From positions 9,615,606 through 9,679,605 of the forward strand of contig NC_088305.1 in NCBI RefSeq assembly GCF_032854445.1: a stretch of 64,000 nt of DNA, written 5' to 3'. Made by a program: the position numbers and the translations under genes. The notes beneath the pieces are model-generated. The model was not told where the DNA came from. It saw only the letters and a list, made by a program, of their open reading frames with translations, and did no database searches. The stretch comes from Liolophura sinensis (taxonomy: Eukaryota; Mollusca; Polyplacophora; Chitonida; Chitonidae). This document shows, piece by piece, positions 1 to 46,019 of this stretch. Position 1 is the stretch's first letter. Each line of letters begins with the position of its first letter.

Positions 1-1798
1 ACAGGGGATACTCCTAGGCTGAACAATGGTAATTCTGTGAAAGGTGCGCTAATACGGCCTAAGTTAATTTCTTTATTAAGTTATTCGCCTACCAGGGTTG
101 CACATTTACTTGCCGATTTACGATTTTTACACTCTAGACGCACACGGGGACCAGAATAGTTAAGGCTAAATCGTTCACGAAAACCAGTTGACAATAGTGT
201 GGCAGCTTCAGTATCGGATATAGAGCTAGGTAACTATCCAGATCCTCGGGTTTGATAGGAGAATGTCCTAGTGCCCAAAAATTGAGCGTTGGCGGGACGG
301 GACCGCTGAGAGACATAGTGGTTTCGAATCCCATTGAATATGTGCTTGGGAAGTGCAGGGTGGGATGGTTGATATCGAAATGTTGGTCGAAATGTACCAG
401 ACTGTAAAACTACAGCAAGATGTCTAAGGCAGGTAACGGCTGGGTGATTGTCGATTACCATTTACATGCATGCAAGTAAGGACAAAGGTGTTTCAGACAA
501 GAGCTGATGTTGTTTTGCAGGTAGCATTTTGCTTGCGCTGGTTGTGAACTAGGATCAGCTCGATACCCGGTTGCAGAGCCCATGTAGATAAACAATAATT
601 CCGTGTCTACCACCGCCCAAGAATTAGAAGGATTGACTGCTTTCCTTAAACTATACTGCATGTGGTATTCTTTCCACGCAGTGGCCCCCGGTTGACACCC
701 AAACGGATTGTATGCACATACCTCAGCAATCCCCGGGCTGCTCCAGGCTGAGCCTCGAGATAAATATCCATAAAAATTATGAAATCATCAAATCATCTGT
801 CAAAAGTATCTGTCTTTCGAGGATTTACATCTTTTGTGACTATGTCCCCAAACTTATTTAACGTAAGTCGTTTCTCAAACTTAACACCATGATTAACTGA
901 TAATAAGATTGCCAAGTCGACATACCGGCCTTTAATAATTTTTTTTTGTTTTATGCATAACTAAACCAGGCGCATCGCAAGATACGACTGGTTTGGGCTG
1001 GTCGCAAGTGACAGGTGGATAGGCATGTACATCAGGTGGTTTGTCCCATGGGTGCTAGTCACCGGAATAACATTGTCGCTTGTGGGCTCAACTACATGAA
1101 ATCTGAGACTGCCGACCGTGATGAAAATTTAGGCCTGCTTATTGCAGTGGGAGCGATGCCATCCCTAGACTTAGACTTTGGTGTTGGCATGCTGACACAT
1201 TGAAGATATTAGTACATGGAAAATGAAAATAATCTTAATTATAAACGGTTCTCAATATAACGTACATAACAATATAAAAGTATACGTGGGATGTATGCCT
1301 AGAACAGACACACTTGAGAGATTGGAAAAATTTAACCTTGTTTCAAAACATCGTTCAATTGTTGTAATATATCCATCAAGCTACGTAACTATATTTATCA
1401 AAACATAAAAAGTATGCAAACTTCACGTCAGTTTACACTTCATCTTAAAGTGCAAAGAAGCAAAGTTCTGTCGTTGCGGGAAAGCAACTATATGGAACAA
1501 CTGTACTGGCCCTAGTGACAAGGGAGACTACTCCAAACAAAGCAGGCTACAAGGTGCCCCGGAGAGACAAGGGAGACCACTCTATATTAAAGTGCCAAAT
1601 TATCTCCTTTCAATAATATCAGATATTTCTTATGAAAGAAATAGCCTTTATATTATTCTCTTGCATTTTATGAATAATACGTCACCAGTTTGCCGACAAG
1701 ATTTCGCCGCAAATTGAGTAATAAACTGTAATACAGCTTAGACTTAAACACTTTCTTCTGTATTGCATGGTTTACGACCTGTACCACATCGGTTTGAG
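1..1798. other. Non-coding stretch upstream of the GPCR exon array
   Basis: I see no exon with family motifs here on either strand. The short open frames have no recognisable domains and no convincing flanking splice sites. Because the downstream GPCR exons (5356-6487) encode only TM6 to the C-terminus, this stretch is most likely intron of that gene, with the TM1-TM5 exons lying before the window. That placement is inferred, not seen. Confidence 0.5.
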
Positions 1799-4700
1799 GA
1801 AGCTGGTCAAATTCATACTAGTGTTAATCCCCCAATACGGAGTGATGTATATCCCTTTTTCTACACTTCTCTTTCAGGAAGCTGGCTAAATTCATACTAG
1901 TGCTGATCCCTCGATTCGGCGTCATGTATATCACCTTTTCTACATTTCTCTTTTAGGAAGCTGGATAAATAGATACTAGTGCTGATCCCTCCTTTCGGCG
2001 TTGTGTATGTCCCCTTTTCTACATTTCTCTTTCAGGAAGCTGGCTAAATTCATACTGGTGCTAATCCCTCTATTCGGCGTTATCTATATCACCTTTTCCA
2101 CATTTGTGTTTCCAGAAGATGGCCAAATTCATACTAGTGCCAATCCCTCTATTCGGCGTCATGTATACCACCTTTTCTACGCCTCTCTTTCAGGAAGCTG
2201 GCTAAATTCATACTGGTGCTAATCTCTCTATTCGACGTCATGCATATCACCTATTCTACACGTCTCTTTCAGGTAGCTGGCTAAATTCATACTATTATAG
2301 ACGAATCCCTCTATTCGGCGTTATGTATATCACTTTTTCGACATTTGTGTTTCGGGAAGCTGGCCAAATTCATACTGGTGCTAATCCCTCTATTCGGCGT
2401 CATGTATATCACCTTTTCCACATTTGTGTTTCCAGAAGCTGGCCAAATTCATACTAGTGCTAATCCCTCCTTTCGGCGTCATGTATACCACCTTTTCTAC
2501 GCCTCTCTTTCAGGAAGCTGGCCAAATTCATACTGGTGCTAATCCCTCTATTCGGCGTCATGTATATCACCTATTCCACATTTGTGTTTCCGGAAGCTGG
2601 CCAATTCATACTAGTGCTAATCCCTCCTTTCGGCGTCATGTATACCACCTTTTCTACGCCTCTCTTTTAGGAAGCTGGCCAAATTCATACTGGTGCTAAT
2701 CCCTCTATTCGGCGTCATGTATATCACCTATTCCACATTTGTGTTTCCGGAAGCTGGCCAAATTCCTACTAGTGCTAATCCCTCCTTTCGGCGTCATGTA
2801 TACCACCTTTTCTACGCCTCTCTTTCAGGAAGCTGGCCAAATTCATACTGGTGCTAATCCCTCTATTCGGCGTCATGTATATCACCTATTCCACATTTGT
2901 GTTTCCGGAAGCTGGCCAAATTCATACTAGTGCTAATCCCTCCTTTCGGCGTCATGTATACCACCTTTCTACGCCTCTCTTTTAGGAAGCTGGCCAAATT
3001 CATACTGGTGCTAATCCCTCTATTCGGCGTCATGTATACCACCTATTCCACATTTGTGTTTCCGGAAGCTGGCCAAATTCAAACTAGTGCTAATCCCTCC
3101 TTTCGGCGTCATGTATACCACCTTTTCTACGCCTCTCTTTCCGGAAGCTGGCCAAATTCATACTGGTGCTAATCCCTCTATTCGGCGTCATGTATACCAC
3201 CTTTTCCACATTTGTGTTTCCGGAAGCTGGCCAAATTCATACTGGTGCTAATCCCTCCTTTCGGCGTCATGTATACCACCTTTTCTACGCCTCTCTTTCA
3301 GGAAGCTGGCCAAATTCATACTGGTGCTAATCCCTCTATTCGGCGTCATGTATATCACCTATTCCACATTTGTGTTTCCGGAAGCTGGCCAAATTCATAC
3401 TAGTGCTAATCCCTCCTTTCGGCGTCATGTATACCACCTTTTCTACGCCTCTCTTTCAGGAAGCTGGCCAAATTCATACTGGTGCTAATCCCTCTATTCG
3501 GCGTCATGTATATCACCTATTCCACATTTGTGTTTCCGGAAGCTGGCCAAATTCCTACTAGTGCTAATCCCTCCTTTCGGCGTCATGTATACCACCTTTT
3601 CTACGCCTCTTTTTCAGGAAGCTGGCCAAATTCATACTGGTGCTAATCCCTCTATTCGGCGTCATGTATATCACCTATTCCACATTTGTGTTTCCGGAAG
3701 CTGGCCAAATTCATACTAGTGCTAATCCCTCCTTTCGGCGTCATGTATACCACCTTTTCTACGCCTCTCTTTTAGGAAGCTGGCCAAATTCATACTGGTG
3801 CTAATCCCTCTATTCGGCGTCATGTATATCACCTATTCCACATTTGTGTTTCCGGAAGCTGGCCAAATTCATACTAGTGCTAATCCCTCCTTTCGGCGTC
3901 ATGTAATCCACCTTTTCTACGCCTCTCTTTCAGGAAGCTGGCCAAATTCATACTGGTGCTAATCCCTCTATTCGGCGTCATGTATATCACCTATTCCACA
4001 TTTGTGTTTCCGGAAGCTGGCCAAATTCATACTGGTGCTAATCCCTCTATTCGGCGTCATGTATACCACCTTTTCCACATTTGTGTTTCCGGAAGCTGGC
4101 CAAATTTATACTGGTGCTAATCCCTCCTTTCGGCGTCATGTATACCACCTTTTCTACGCCTCTCTTTCAGGAAGCTGGCCAAATTCATACTGGTGCTAAT
4201 CCCTCTATTCGGCGTCATGTATATCACCTATTCCACATTTGTGTTTCCGGAAGCTGGCCAAATTCATACTAGTGCTAATCCCTCCTTTCGGTGTCATGTA
4301 TACCACCTTTTCTACGCCTCTCTTTCAGGAAGCTGGCCAAATTCATACTGGTGCTAATCCCTCTATTCGGCGTCATGTATATCACCTATTCCACATTTGT
4401 GTTTCCGGAAGCTGGCCAAATTCATACTAGTGCTAATCCCTCCTTTCGGCGTCATGTATACCACCTTTTCTACGCCTCTCTTTCAGGAAGCTGGCCAAAT
4501 TCATACTGGTGCTAATCCCTCTATTCGGCGTCATGTATATCACCTATTCCACATTTGTGTTTCCGGAAGCTGGCCAAATTCCTACTAGTGCTAATCCCTC
4601 CTTTCGGCGTCATGTATACCACCTTTTCTACGCCTCTCTTTTAGGAAGCTGGCCAAATTCATACTGGTGCTAATCCCTCTATTCGGCGTCATGTATATCA

Positions 4701-5355
4701 CCTATTCCACATTTGTGTTTCCGGAAGCTGGCCAAATTCATACTAGTGCTAATCCCTCCTTTCGGCGTCATGTATACCACCTTTTCTACGCCTCTCTTTC
4801 AGGAAGCTGGCCAAATTCATACTGGTGCTAATCCCTCTATTCGGCGTCATGTATATCACCTATTCCACATTTGTGTTTCCGGAAGCTGGCCAAATTCATA
4901 CTAGTGCTAATCCCTCCTTTCGGCGTCATGTATACCACCTTTTCTACGCCTCTCTTTCAGGAAGCTGGCCAAATTCATACTGGTGCTAATCCCTCTATTC
5001 GGCGTCATGTATATCACCTATTCCACATTTGTGTTTCCGGAAGCTGGCCAAATTCATACTAGTGCTAATCCCTCCTTTCGGCGTCATGTATACCACCTTT
5101 TCTACACCTCTCTTTCAGGAAGCTGGCTAAATTCATATTAGTGCTAATCCCTCTATTCGGGGTTATCTATATCACCTTTTCTACATTTGTGTTTCCGGAA
5201 GCTGGACAAATTCACACTTGTACTATTCCCTCTGTTCGGCGTCATGTATATCACTTTTTCTACATTTCGGTTTCAGGAAGCTGGCTGAATTTATACTAGT
5301 GCTAATCTCTCTATTCGGCGTCATGAAAATCACCTTTTCTACATTTCTGTTTCAG
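1799..5355 (+). repeat. 79-bp tandem array made of duplicated GPCR intron/exon boundary
   Basis: About 45 head-to-tail copies of a 79-bp unit. In the middle of the array they form an alternating 158-bp dimer; starts at 3054, 3212, 3370 and 3528, and at 4239 and 4397, are 158 bp apart. Each unit has about 55 bp that translate as the start of class B1 GPCR TM6 (KLAKFILVLIPLFGVMYI), followed by about 24 bp of pyrimidine-rich intron-like sequence. In half of the units this ends in a good 3' splice site (CTCTCTTTCAG or CTTTTAG). In the alternate unit type it ends TTTCCG, so the acceptor AG is lost. The array runs straight into the genuine exon at 5356, which carries the same boundary, so the unit arose by tandem duplication across that acceptor. 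Edge copies (1799-2300 and 5100-5355) are more diverged than central ones. The unit is 79 bp, not a multiple of three, so read-through frames close after 60-90 residues. The short open frames inside it are not genes. Confidence 0.93.
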
Positions 5356-5494
5356 GAAGTTGGCCAAATTTACACTGGTATTAATCCCTCTATTCGGCGT
5401 CATGTACATCATATTCGTGGCTTTCCCGCCGGACCTTCCAGAAGAAACGGAAACACCATACCTTTACGCAGAAATGTTTATTAACTCCTTCCAG
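5356..5494 (+). CDS. Class B1 GPCR, exon coding TM6-ECL3-start of TM7
   Basis: This is an internal exon of a secretin-family (class B1) seven-transmembrane peptide-hormone receptor, a plasma-membrane receptor that signals through heterotrimeric G proteins. A pyrimidine tract and TTTCAG precede it and GTAAGA follows. It enters in phase 2 (the G completes an Arg-like codon) and leaves in phase 0, giving 46 codons. It reads KLAKFTLVLIPLFGVMYI (TM6, with the family LxPLFGV motif), then an extracellular loop PPDLPEETETPYLY, then AEMFINSFQ (start of TM7; NSFQG is a hallmark of PTH/secretin-type receptors). The loop and the EMxxNSFQG stretch look most like the PTH receptor branch, but CRH-, PDF- or PACAP-type receptors cannot be excluded. 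Its own acceptor is the last copy of the 79-bp array, so about 45 decoy boundary copies precede it. Only this copy continues into TM7 in the right frame. Confidence 0.88.
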
Positions 5495-5775: not shown

Positions 5776-5817
5776 GGCTTTCTGTTGGCACTGCTGTTCT
5801 GCTTTCTAAACGAAGAG
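5776..5817 (+). CDS. Class B1 GPCR, 42-nt TM7 exon
   Basis: A 42-nt micro-exon bounded by TTTTTGAAG and GTGAGT, phase 0 at both ends, encoding GFLLALLFCFLNEE. It joins the previous exon to give NSFQGFLLALLFCFLNEE, the classic end of TM7 in class B1 receptors (family pattern NSFQGFxVxxxYCFxNxEV). A separate 14-codon exon at exactly this place is a known trait of this family in vertebrates. That supports both the gene call and the exon boundaries. It is too short to be found as an open frame. Confidence 0.9.
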
Positions 5818-6097: not shown

Positions 6098-6487
6098 GTC
6101 CATCTCGAGCTGAAGAAGATTTGGACGCGCCACAAGATGAGACGGCGGGATAGCTACCTTCTCACGAGATCCTTCGTTGTTTCTTCGACTGTGCACGCGT
6201 CTAGCCGCCGAAAGGGATCCGCCTTACGTCAGGGCTACGATACCGACTCGATCGGCAACCACCACGCCACGGTAATCGTCAAGGGAGATAAGCCATCATC
6301 ACATTTGCCGGGCAAGCCCAGAGATCAGCATTACGAGATGAAGACAGTGTGTAATGGAAAAGCTCAGAAGGGTCGACGAAAGGTGTATTCGTTTAGCAGG
6401 CGAGACCAAGGTTCTAACGGATTATCTCCCCTCCATTCAGATCGCTCGCAGAGTGACGACTCAAAACACAAACCGGAAGCTGTGTGA
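6098..6487 (+). CDS. Class B1 GPCR, last exon: cytoplasmic tail and stop
   Basis: This terminal exon starts after TCCTCAG in phase 0 and runs 129 codons to TGA at 6485-6487. It opens with VHLELKKIWTRHK, the helix-8 segment (family pattern EVQxELKRxWxRW), so the junction reads FLNEE-VHLELKKIW. The rest is a polar, basic, serine-rich cytoplasmic tail with several Arg/Lys clusters (RRRDS, SRRKGS, KGRRKVYS) of the type phosphorylated by kinases and bound by arrestins. It ends PEAV. The frame from 5356 through the three exons is uninterrupted, so this end of the receptor looks intact. The extracellular hormone-binding domain and TM1-TM5 are not in the window. PTH-receptor-like is the best subfamily guess; the tail itself is not diagnostic. 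Confidence 0.87.
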   Translation, partial: VHLELKKIWTRHKMRRRDSYLLTRSFVVSSTVHASSRRKGSALRQGYDTDSIGNHHATVIVKGDKPSSHLPGKPRDQHYEMKTVCNGKAQKGRRKVYSFSRRDQGSNGLSPLHSDRSQSDDSKHKPEAV

Positions 6488-33931: not shown

Positions 33932-35267
33932 ACCTAGGGCCCTCTCCGCGTTAACCTGGAGTCAATCGAGGCATTACTTTGGTGGTTTTTAGTCAGTGTG
34001 CAAGTCCAGCACACGGCGTATAACGTTTTTATACACTTATTACTTGTGCAGTTACGGCCATCCATGGGTCACGTGATATTTCAACTTTCTTCGTTATCTC
34101 AAAACAAATTCGTGTGTGCGTATATGACGCTTGTCGCACATGGGAATGTGCTTCGTACAATGTTTCCCTACAATAATTTGGTATTAATTTGCTGAAAAGG
34201 CTGGTTAAATTCAACTCACGGGGTCGTAGAGTTTCTTTTGGCCATCAGTTTATGAGAAAATACAGCCAGATATTGTGCATATAGGTTGTAGTCTTTTATG
34301 TATATACATATTTTCTGGCTAAAGTAAAAGAAATGTTTCTTTTATGTTTTAAGTATTTTGCCTATATGCAGCAATTTTATACAGTAATGTTGTTTTTCAC
34401 CTATTTCAATATGTTTATCTATTCTCCACCAGCAGACGGCCGGAAGATAAATCCTGAAATGGGTGACTTAATTCTGCTAGGGGAGTCCCCATGGGAATGG
34501 CATGGCGAGAGAAAAAAAACAGAGCATATTACCGTGAATATATTCTAGTTTTCTGTTTTTTCTGAATCTTAACTTCATATATTCAGTTTTCCTTCACTTT
34601 GTAGCGTTGAAATTCTCCGCTGTATGTTAAGTCACTTAGTCTGATGTAATTCAGCGGACCTTGCCAATGGGATGAAGAGAAAGCAAACGCTGCCGTATAA
34701 CTGCACATTACCTAACCTGCTGAACTCATGGGAAATCTGCGCTTGATGTTGGAGTGTTGTTGATGATTTAATTAAATTTATTCAACTTATTCCGATAGTT
34801 ATGCTTTCAAGTTTTGAAGATAAAAGGGGTAAAAAAAATGATTATTGTTATTATAGTTAAACACCACATTAGCAATATTCCAACTCTATCGTGACACTAC
34901 TCATTACCTGTTTGCCGAGATATAAGTGAAGACGTCTTGAATACGGCAATGAAACACTAATAACAAAAAAAAGTAAATATGTCGTGACAAGAATCCGCAT
35001 CACAGCATTCAGACTAATTATGCTAGCGTATGTTCAATGTAGCGCAATGTATGTGTCATAGAAACTTTTAAGTTTTCATTCCATTTTCTCCTGGAGAGTG
35101 TAAATGTCACAATCTGTTTGAAGTGTTGATTCTGACAGTTTAAAAGGTGACCTTCCGCACACTAGGTTATACCGAACAAATTTGCATATTCTCTGTAAGC
35201 TGTTAAAGCGTTCATGTGTCTTCAAACAGTCAGTACAAATGACTTCATGAAACTTTGCGAATAATTC
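33932..35267. other. Intergenic DNA
   Basis: No gene recognised. A faint SINE A-like tail occurs at 34908-34965 (GATATAAGTGAAGACGTCTT). Confidence 0.45.
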
Positions 35268-35412
35268 CTGTATGTTTAGAGACTGTGTGAATCTTTTCTG
35301 TATGTTAATAGATTTGTGAATCTTTCCTGTAGGTTTAGACACTTGCTGAATCTTTTCTGTAATTTTATAGACTTGCACATCCTTCCTGTAAGTTTTTAGA
35401 CTTTGTGAGTCT
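35268..35412. repeat. About 32-bp imperfect minisatellite
   Basis: Four to five diverged copies of a unit containing GTGAATCTTTCCTGTAGGTT, spaced 30-35 bp. Confidence 0.75.
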
Positions 35413-35989
35413 TTCTTCCAAGGATTTGATTTTCTGTTTACATAAATAATCCATGCAACGAGTGGATTTTAAGATATGCAAAACTCACGTTTATTTCTGA
35501 GGAATTCAGCACATAGTCATGATCATGAAATCATTTTTGATTTCTTCTTCTTTGATCATGTTGTTATGACAACCCATTGAAGATTGCTGTGAAAAAATTT
35601 CAATGTATGTCAAATAAATGCCCGAGGCGGCTTTCCATAATGGACCATGGTTCCATGATAGACAGTAATGTTCCCAGTTTGCCGCAATATCATTTTTCTC
35701 GAAATCATTTTCTCGGAATTTGTTTTAGGAAATCATCTCATAATCATGGATACCAGAAATCAGAAATGTTTGTAAAATTGCTTCCCCGAAATAAGATTTG
35801 AAACACCACGGGAGAAAACACAAAAGATATGCAAAAATCAAAAGAAAGAGCGTTAACACTTACTTGCAAATATGGTCTTCAATATTTTTATCGTTTTTTT
35901 TTTTTACGGTGCTTGAAAATATTTGTGCTTGGTGGGTATTTGATAAATATCTTGATGTACATTATCATTCCATAATAATGTTCCCATGC
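35413..35989. other. Intergenic DNA
   Basis: Nothing recognisable; a T10 run near 35896. Confidence 0.5.
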
Positions 35990-43129: not shown

Positions 43130-44363
43130 TGTAGTGATTAAGACTGCACTGAGCAGTCCATAGGCTTCACAACACGTATATTGATGAAGAGGTCGGATAG
43201 ACCTCAGAGCTGGTAGTGGAAGTCATTCTTCGTATGCTGAAAGTAATTATAGGGTCACCACACCAGTTAAAGCCAGGAGAACCCCAAGCAAGACAGCGGA
43301 TGGAACAATTGACAGTATGATATGGCTGAAACCAATTGGTGTGACAGCATGTGTCTCCACAGACAAATTATGCCGATGACTACGAAAAGCTCCTCCAATC
43401 TCTTGAAGACGACAGACAAAAGGGAAATGGATATGTGTATAGAGTTCACTGTGACGAGAAATCTACACTCATTTATAAGCGACAGAAATAGATGCGATCT
43501 ATAAGGTTACAACAGGGGAGATTTGACACTAAGATGAGAGTGGTGTACAGATCAATTAGCTGTAAGGCCCGAGTCAGGAGTTCCCCATGGTTAAGGGAGG
43601 TCACTGGATTGTAAACCAGGGTCACTGGATCAGGCTTCTGATGGTATTCAAAACAGACCAAACACCAATTTATAATGATCGAAAGATTGGCTTCCCTAAT
43701 CCTCGGGATGTCGCCTGAGTAAACTGCTTTCAATTAGTTTGCAGGGACCAGAAAACCAATGGGACTGAATGTACGACACATGAGATAGGCTTATCCGAGG
43801 AAAGCATGGATTTGCACATAATAAGCAAATTTAGTAACTTATTTATTTTATTGTTATTGTTTAAGGGAATACCCAAGAGTATTCAACACCATCCTTGGTG
43901 GACATTTTTGGGGCGGAGGAAACCAGAGGGCCTGCAGGAAAATATCGACCAAAAAATCACGCACTGTAAAGATACACTTATCCGACAAGAATCCCGATTG
44001 CACGTATGCCAAGGAAATTTATTTATGTAGTCTTTGTTTTTGTTTAACGTAAAACTAAAGAATATCTTAACTTAAACCTTGGCCAACAGGTTTATTTTTG
44101 GAGGTGTTGTCGGTGGGGGTAGGGCTGGGGAGAGGGTATGGATAACCGGAAGGCCTGGAGGAAAACATTTAGCAAGCTATGGCGTCATTCTTCTGACGCA
44201 CACCGTTTCCGGTTAACACACTGTTTAACTTAATTTACCCAAAGCAGTCCACTGAACGCCAACGAACGTTGATACTTTCTAGAGGGACAGATATCGAGCT
44301 GTGCATGCGTTCAAGTCCAGCTTTCGCTGTGACATCAATCCGTAAAAAAAATCCGGGGTATAT
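43130..44363. other. Intergenic DNA
   Basis: No gene. 43838-43945 faintly resembles a reverse SINE A (TTATTGTTTAAGGGAATACC, GGAGGAAACCAGAGGGCC). Confidence 0.45.
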
Positions 44364-44483
44364 GATGGCTTTGGTGTGCTTCCCTCGTACCTTGATGGCT
44401 TTGGTGTGCTTCCCTCGTACCTTGATGGCTTTGGTGTGCTTCCCTCGTACCTTGATGGCTTTGGTGTGCTTCCCTCGTACCTT
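44364..44483. repeat. Perfect 30-bp x 4 minisatellite
   Basis: Four identical units beginning GATGGCTTTGGTGTGCTTCC. Because 30 is a multiple of three, both strands stay open (a 10-residue repeat such as KVRGKHTKAI on the minus strand). There is no start context, splice signal or flanking domain to suggest a gene. Confidence 0.95.
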
Positions 44484-46019
44484 GATCCCTCCATAAATCC
44501 ATCCCAGTCCTCTACCGTGCATTTTAGTGAAACACCCACGGAATAAAAAAGCAACAATATATTAACTAAGTACACAGCTACATTGTCTCCATTTTGACAA
44601 AGCTGATAACATACGTAGGCGTTGTAGATAATATCACTGTTGCACTTTTCGCCTAGTATTTCATGCCCACACTAAATCAGCACCAGTGTCCAAATATTAA
44701 CTCAGAGACTAGAGAAATGAGCCATCGGAGAAGGGAGCATCAAATCATTTAGTTCCCTCCGTGGACTTGACACAGACAATAGGGACCGTCTTGAATAAAC
44801 AGTACGATAATAATGCTGCTAACGGAAGCCAAGTGTACCTTTGAGTGGGCCAAATCACCAGGCCATAAATGTGCTATATGCTGACTAAAAGCATCGCAGT
44901 CACCAAACCTAATATGTGCATTTATCTTAGAATATGTGGGACGCGGGGTGGGAAATTATGCCAACTTATGAGATTGAACTAGTTCCATCTTTCATAGATG
45001 CCTTTTGGATTAGTGTAATTAGGGTAGGAATCTGATCGTCTACATTGGACAGCTCTCTCTCCCTCTCTCTCTGTCTCTCTATCTGTTTTTGACCTAGTTT
45101 GCGTTTAGGTAAATCCGGCAGGCTGATTGCCCCTGTGGCCTTACAATAACCATGATTCACGTCTACTAACCCTTTGTATTTATTGTCCACCAAAGTTGTA
45201 ACGACTGTTCAATGGGGTCCTCGGAATAATGAAAGGGTTTCGAGTTCTGCGGTCTACTGTGACTTTAAATGGCACTTGCAGGGCAAATAGAAAGTGGAAT
45301 AAAAGCGACATTGTCTATGCGGGCCTCGTATATCCAGCTCAATCATAAATATTAGATCAACTGCAAACGCTTGCTAATCTTATGACGCTTAAACGGAAAA
45401 CCGGTAAGTGTTTATCAAATCGATCAAATTAGTGGGAGATTTTCTGACAATCGAAAGCTATTTTCCATTCACCTCGTTCCCGCGTAGCATTGTATTACAG
45501 AGTAAATATTCCCCGCCAAGGAGAAAGACGGTAATTGTCATAGATATATACGCACACGCAGTAGGGTAGTTATTTTACGTTTACCCGGAAGCGGTCTTCA
45601 AAAGTTTCTGAAGCGAGGACGACAGGAAACGAGTCAGAACTTCATTATTATAAACTAAATAACTTAAATTAGCTTTGCGTAAACATCGCGTATAAATATT
45701 GTACTTGGTCCTTTAAAAATTCAATTGTACAGCTTTAAAATACATGCGGCAATTAGATTTTCAAACGGCATTCCAAATGTAAGCCGATACCACATGGGTA
45801 AGAAAATAACACGTTGACCATATAGCCTGAAGGTATCATAGCACTGAGGGCGTTTTATATAAGCTATATACAAGTTTAACAAAAAAGAATGATTTCTGTC
45901 CGTAATATATGCTAATATCGATCACACTTATGCCAAATGTGTCCTCTTTATGATCGCATATATGTAATTTATACTAACACACATCACGACAAGAAATCAT
46001 TTACCAGTAGTTGCGTGTT
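44484..46019. other. Intergenic DNA
   Basis: No gene. A CT-rich microsatellite lies at 45050-45080. Confidence 0.5.

Follow-up and report, generated by a model that had tools for sequence, protein, structure and literature searches.

A mirage-type minisatellite built from an intron/exon junction of a class B1 receptor gene in the chiton Liolophura sinensis

An intron of a receptor gene in the chiton Liolophura sinensis carries 45 tandem copies of the junction at which that intron ends. The array lies in a 64,000-nucleotide stretch of contig NC_088305.1 (assembly GCF_032854445.1), referred to here as the window, and positions are those of the window, forward strand, unless a locus is named. 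It is a real, large and well-preserved array of the type called “mirages” in amphioxus, a name given to tandem repeats that extend over intron-exon boundaries (PMC3087553; PMC3902484). We consider it very probable that this minisatellite grew from one intron/exon junction, that its copies are removed together with the intron and that the last acceptor is selected by exon definition.

The extent and register of the array establish where its unit came from. TRF returned a single array at 1792-5411 with a period of 79 and 45.8 copies. When positions 1799-5355 are cut at the boundary GAAG, they yield 45 units (42 of 79 bp, two of 78 bp and one of 83 bp), each composed of a pyrimidine-rich intron end of about 23 bp and an exon start of about 56 bp. 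Unit-by-unit spacing places the real exon (5356-5494) as the next unit in register after the 45th. Its first 56 bp (5356-5411) correspond to the founder part of the unit: the consensus of the B-type units of the array core matches 50 of these 56 bases, whereas the best of 20,000 shuffles matched 28. The unit is thus the 3' end of the intron joined to the start of the exon, as the original prediction had proposed, and the similarity runs over 56 exon bases. On the left, homology reaches its limit at about 1773. The leftmost copy retains a decayed intron tail (1773-1798; profile match TACGACC...TTTGAG, 42.5 bits including part of unit 1), and, left of 1773, local alignment of 1641-1798 gave no copies that outscored shuffles (p = 0.12). 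When the 79-bp unit was searched against the 609-Mb assembly, it returned at least 45 matches. All 45 lay within window positions 1872-5411, the rightmost being the exon itself, and none of the other loci that a dispersed satellite would occupy was found in this search, which gives a lower bound. Rfam reported nothing in the window at the gathering threshold.

By its protein matches, the host is a class B1 receptor and the exon at the end of the array encodes transmembrane helix 6 (TM6). The best PDB matches to the translation of this 139-bp exon, (R)KLAKFTLVLIPLFGVMYIIFVAFPPDLPEETETPYLYAEMFINSFQ, were PTH1R and VIPR1 chains, and Pfam assigned it to 7tm_2. The real acceptor AG (TTTCTGTTTCAG) was located at 5354-5355 from the sequence and the boundary trimers, and the exon ends at a GTAAGA donor. 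The TM7 exon (42 bp, GFLLALLFCFLNEE, 5776-5817) and the last coding exon (VHLELKKIW...PEAV stop, 6098-6487), both delimited by matches and exon boundaries, are open and in frame with TM6. A genuine junction and exon are therefore kept at the end of the array, with an acceptor, a donor and open downstream exons, and the prediction of a TM6 exon in a class B1 receptor gene that appears intact downstream was borne out. Upstream, the same contig and strand carry a fragment of the hormone-receptor domain (Pfam HRM) and exons for TM1-2, TM3-4, TM5a and TM5b; the TM5b piece (27 residues) has no Pfam match and TM5a is below the cut-off, and both were assigned by similarity to paralogs. We infer that these pieces and the TM6-TM7 exons belong to one gene. 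The TM5b exon ends at window position -3519 (AG/GTATGA, where the slash marks the exon-intron boundary), which gives a TM5b-TM6 intron of 8,874 bp, 40% of it array. Five close paralogs begin the TM6 exon at the same codon, and in seven less closely related family members an acceptor occupies this position too, so the intron is older than the array; a newly gained intron would be absent from relatives, and all 12 share its position. Two other minisatellites (L001 5959-6275 and 7023-7670; 42-bp and 114-bp periods) were noted in introns of the host receptor gene, clear of the exons found.

The array has a higher-order structure in its core and decay at its edges. Units 8-42 (2356-5118) are mostly alternating A/B dimers, as seen from pairwise identity and boundary trimers. 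In the core, identity is 97.8% between A units, 97.6% between B units, 85.2% between A and B units, and 97.7% at a lag of two units. This alternation, with identity higher within than between types, makes 158 bp the true period of the core. The boundary trimer differs between the two halves of the dimer: (C/T)AG in one, mostly CCG in the other. The older units at the left edge (units 1-7, 1799-2355, unit 7 being the 83-bp one) and at the right edge (units 43-45, 5119-5355, adjoining the exon) are diverged: the best identity to any other unit is 85-96% for units 1-6 and 85-94% for units 43-45. For full-length units overall, the best match to another unit is 97-100% for 33 in the core and 85-96% for nine at the edges, so that the centre is homogenised and the edges are left out, as in mirages. 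Furthermore, the two edges share variants that are absent from the core, namely a T at position 9 (units 2, 3, 4, 6, 43 and 45) and a C at position 48 (units 4 and 43). This pattern fits a later amplification of the dimer inside an older array.

Three other readings of the array were weighed against an origin from the junction. The possibility of an unrelated satellite that resembles the exon accidentally or came to lie next to it is negligible. We found no point in its support, and the match to the exon far above the shuffles, the exact register with the exon and the lack of copies elsewhere in the lower-bound search all argue against it. Errors of assembly, in the array itself or in its copy number, are very improbable. 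In amphioxus, a draft assembly misrepresented a globin array (PMC3087553), and the chiton assembly has a coverage of 14x (PMC11068029). However, the HiFi reads behind it average 8,347 bp (PMC11068029), more than twice the length of the array, the units carry position-specific variants and diverged edges, and the 28 kb examined contain no N. A shade less probable still is a coding role, with the upstream units acting as alternative coding starts of the exon or as part of the protein. The exon-like part is open in the receptor frame in 41 of the 45 units, with stops in units 3, 7, 11 and 27. Yet 79 bp is 3n+1, so that every copy shifts the frame; only two of the 45 units (the 78-bp ones) have a length in multiples of three, as a coding tandem repeat would; and each of the 23 upstream AGs at a unit boundary, if used without further splicing, leads to a stop after 1-69 codons. 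Raw counts in the edge units (11/12/30 by codon position) had hinted at coding constraint. The hint was rejected once each distinct variant in the exon-like part was counted once (12/12/17 by codon position, p = 0.54), and variants confined to the edges gave 10/9/12 when treated in the same way. There is no detectable coding constraint in the copies; the lack of codon-position bias, together with the stops in four units, indicates that they evolve as non-coding DNA.

The splice signals of the units bear on how the spliceosome reaches the real exon and on a fourth reading, in which the array is a working decoy. About 45 copies of a splice acceptor had been predicted; the 45 units are indeed in tandem, but only 23 have an AG at the boundary (17 CAG, 5 TAG and 1 GAG). 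The other 22 end in CCG (19 units), CCA (2) or CGG (1), and a G follows directly in the two CCA units (5 and 9), shifting the AG by one base. Hence many but not all copies retain splice signals, as described for mirages. The last acceptor must still be chosen among many, as predicted, because these 23 AG-bearing units lie upstream of it. The real acceptor is equalled or exceeded by 20 of them in pyrimidine content upstream of the boundary, so a choice by acceptor strength alone would not single out the last one. The array contains 41 instances of TGCT(A/G)AT, a branch-point-like motif. Internal donors, which could turn each unit into an exon, were considered and rejected, since none is competitive: scored with human frequencies, the best GT of the array reached 2.0, against 4.2, 7.0 and 7.5 for three genuine donors of this receptor gene. 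From these scores, the last acceptor is probably picked by exon definition, because it alone adjoins a strong donor, 139 nt away. Under the decoy reading, upstream acceptors would send transcripts to nonsense-mediated decay and the number of copies would set receptor output. The abundance of AG-bearing, pyrimidine-rich units and the early stop that follows from the use of any of them are in its favor. We nevertheless regard it as quite unlikely, given that the array has no good donor to define exons, that nearly half of its units lack the boundary AG, that the three clearest copies in a paralog (L004, below) lack it as well, and that the amphioxus data are reported as suggesting no interference with regular splicing (PMC3087553). 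Passive removal of the copies with the intron thus stands as the preferred reading.

The array had been presented as a single case, but similar arrays are found at other splice junctions in this genome. A tandem-repeat scan, combined with reading of the sequence at the junctions, identified junction arrays in four of the five close paralogs besides the host (L004, L005, L006/L016 and L007). No junction array was seen in the stretch examined for the fifth, L003, which excludes the TM1-2 exon. In L005 (C11:20212200-20218200, minus strand), a donor-side array directly follows the TM5b exon (reverse-complement 3467-4146). Its 24-bp unit, TACAG/GTATAAGTAGGCAGTCACG, is present in 15 copies by TRF, with further decayed copies after them and 17 occurrences of ACAGGTA. 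At the L006/L016 locus, the TM2 exon has a 104-bp repeat in 6.5 copies on its acceptor side (L016 2564-3241; C11:12811363-12812040); a 97-bp array upstream of it (L016 2183-2434) looks like older copies. The TM3 exon of L007 (C2:19835900-19841900, minus strand) likewise has an acceptor-side array (reverse-complement 1930-2369), resolved by TRF as 3.2 copies of 136 bp. In L004, decayed copies of the gene's own TM6 junction scored 17, while the highest shuffle scored 14; slice overlap inflates the scores between adjacent slices, and these scores were excluded. Three of the five copies proposed there individually beat 200 shuffles, and these are the three without a boundary AG. L004 was the only one of 12 other family members with copies of the TM6 junction. 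L009 was borderline (p = 0.049) and far from the exon and was not counted. The scan of L013, whose acceptor occupies the same position and whose Pfam match begins upstream of the junction, was negative (p = 0.28). In L010, L011 and L014, where the TM6 probe had no hit, and in L012, where it had none usable, the Pfam match together with the nearest AG defined the acceptors.

Junction arrays were also present in genes unrelated to the receptors. A survey of 18 kinesin and 18 myosin exons, drawn from the best loci of each search, identified them in three of 36 exons, a lower bound because exons that extend more than 150 bp past the Pfam match could hide arrays. Two are donor-side: L018 (125 bp x 4), where the GT is lost in the three downstream copies, and L053 (66 bp x 8), which has eight ATCAG/GTATGT sites including the real one. 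The third, L023, is acceptor-side (64 bp x 11.8). Reading of the sequence placed the arrays of L019, L027, L034, L045 and L050 near the exon but outside it, and the raised scores of L020 and L052 were unconvincing by eye. A replicate fixed beforehand on ABC-transporter exons yielded no junction array in 19 exons, one from each of the 19 loci obtained out of 20 requested; the array of L066, with its start 13 bp beyond the end of the exon, was left out of the count. The pooled rate is 3/55 (95% interval 1-15%), which is not comparable with that of the receptor paralogs because the scan took in the entire paralogs but, in the surveys, only the surroundings of each match. Since 16.7% of the kinesin/myosin loci and 9.6% of the ABC loci consist of tandem repeats, frequent tandem duplication in genic regions may be enough to explain the junction arrays. 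The TM6 array is apparently one of several to many such arrays in this genome, and their genome-wide frequency is uncertain. We think it unlikely that junction arrays occur throughout the genome of this chiton, at a few percent of exons and on both the acceptor and the donor side, with introns growing from their own junctions and the number of intact decoys tuning the amount of correctly spliced host mRNA.

Other tandem structures were noted in passing. The window contains a decayed 30/59-bp array at 35254-35414, whose units have CTGTAAGT-like donor motifs, and a 30-bp repeat in 4.1 identical copies at 44363-44486. The latter lies inside four stop-to-stop frames of 66-130 aa (for example, RYEGSTPKPS on the minus strand) and may be coding. 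In addition, COX1 recurs seven times on G000:C99 at intervals of about 15.5 kb, with one copy matched only partially; this contig holds several mitochondrial genomes head to tail, either an assembly artefact or a nuclear insertion. The mitochondrial gene order, assigned by eye, is cox3-nad3-nad2-cox1-cox2, and a mollusc-type hemocyanin domain is repeated eight times consecutively on C8; both observations indicate a mollusc. The published chiton assembly (PMC11068029) first appeared under the name Liolophura japonica, which was later corrected to L. sinensis (PMC12441733).

The original prediction knew of no named system of this kind, and in this it needs correction. The amphioxus papers describe mirages in the BflGb6 and BflGb9 globins and in Adh3, and liken repeats in troponin C and PGBD5 to them (PMC3087553; PMC3902484). 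The BflGb6 repeat combines an intron 3' end with the 5' part of an exon, and its unit number is 6 in one haplotype and 3 in another; splice signals are retained in many, not all, units and the edges stay outside homogenisation (PMC3087553). Copy-number polymorphism and somatic instability are likewise counted among the traits of amphioxus mirages. From Adh3 and RT-PCR data, the authors suggest that regular splicing is undisturbed in amphioxus (PMC3087553). The chiton array shares the structural traits of mirages: minisatellite-like repeats in which intron tail and exon start span the boundary in register beside a genuine exon, AG or GT in many copies, and a homogenised middle with diverged edges. 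The occurrence of acceptor-side and donor-side forms is likewise common to mirages and to the chiton arrays. The differences are the mollusc host, the dimensions (45 x 79 bp versus 6 and 3 copies of 150-160 bp in BflGb6 and units of 10-72 bp in Adh3) and the regular dimer, one half of which mostly lacks the AG. Among the matches listed in the open-licence literature searched, all mirages in print were from amphioxus and none was from a mollusc. The apparently new aspects are the host phylum and, for the arrays, their size and recurrence.

Other systems resemble the chiton array in part. Human variable internal tandem repeats, with average units of 30 bp x 4, are also minisatellites at exon-intron boundaries and alter gene structure, but they are reported to produce novel introns and alternative splicing in recent human paralogs (PMC2812944). 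Tandem duplication near splice signals is likewise the basis of the model of intron gain by duplication of AG/GT sites (Rogers 1989, as cited in PMC3087553 and PMC2812944; see also PMC4974935). The chiton array differs from both: its intron is old and holds the array inside it, its position is common to the paralogs, and no new intron has formed. In a further case, the human IFI6 (6-16) gene reportedly contains a minisatellite with repeated splice donors (Turri et al. 1995). It resembles the chiton array as a tandem repeat that multiplies splice sites but is donor-side, and the short donor-side repeat of L005, with its 24-bp unit and 17 ACAGGTA, is nearer to it than the TM6 array is.

An origin that accommodates these observations can be outlined. 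A segment of about 79 bp across the acceptor, with about 23 bp from the intron and 56 bp from the exon, would have been duplicated in tandem. The extra copies would fall on the intron side of the last copy and leave the exon and its acceptor whole. The duplication would be tolerable for this reason, as the additional copies are spliced out with the intron. Unequal exchange or slippage could then have expanded the array, and a two-unit form of 158 bp would have spread in its middle, leaving older units at both edges. In splicing, exon definition would select the last acceptor, with its strong donor 139 nt away and an array devoid of good donors before it. We infer all three elements of this account, that is, the mechanism of duplication, the reason for its tolerance and the way in which the acceptor is chosen.

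A 45-copy case in a mollusc, together with arrays in related and unrelated genes of the same genome, suggests that splice junctions are permissive sites for tandem duplication. Whereas duplications confined to an exon do damage, a duplication across the exon's edge can be removed by splicing. Junction arrays would in this way be a source of intron growth and of decoy splice sites. The TM6 array also provides a natural test of splice-site choice, in which 23 AG-bearing copies of an acceptor precede the real one in a single intron.
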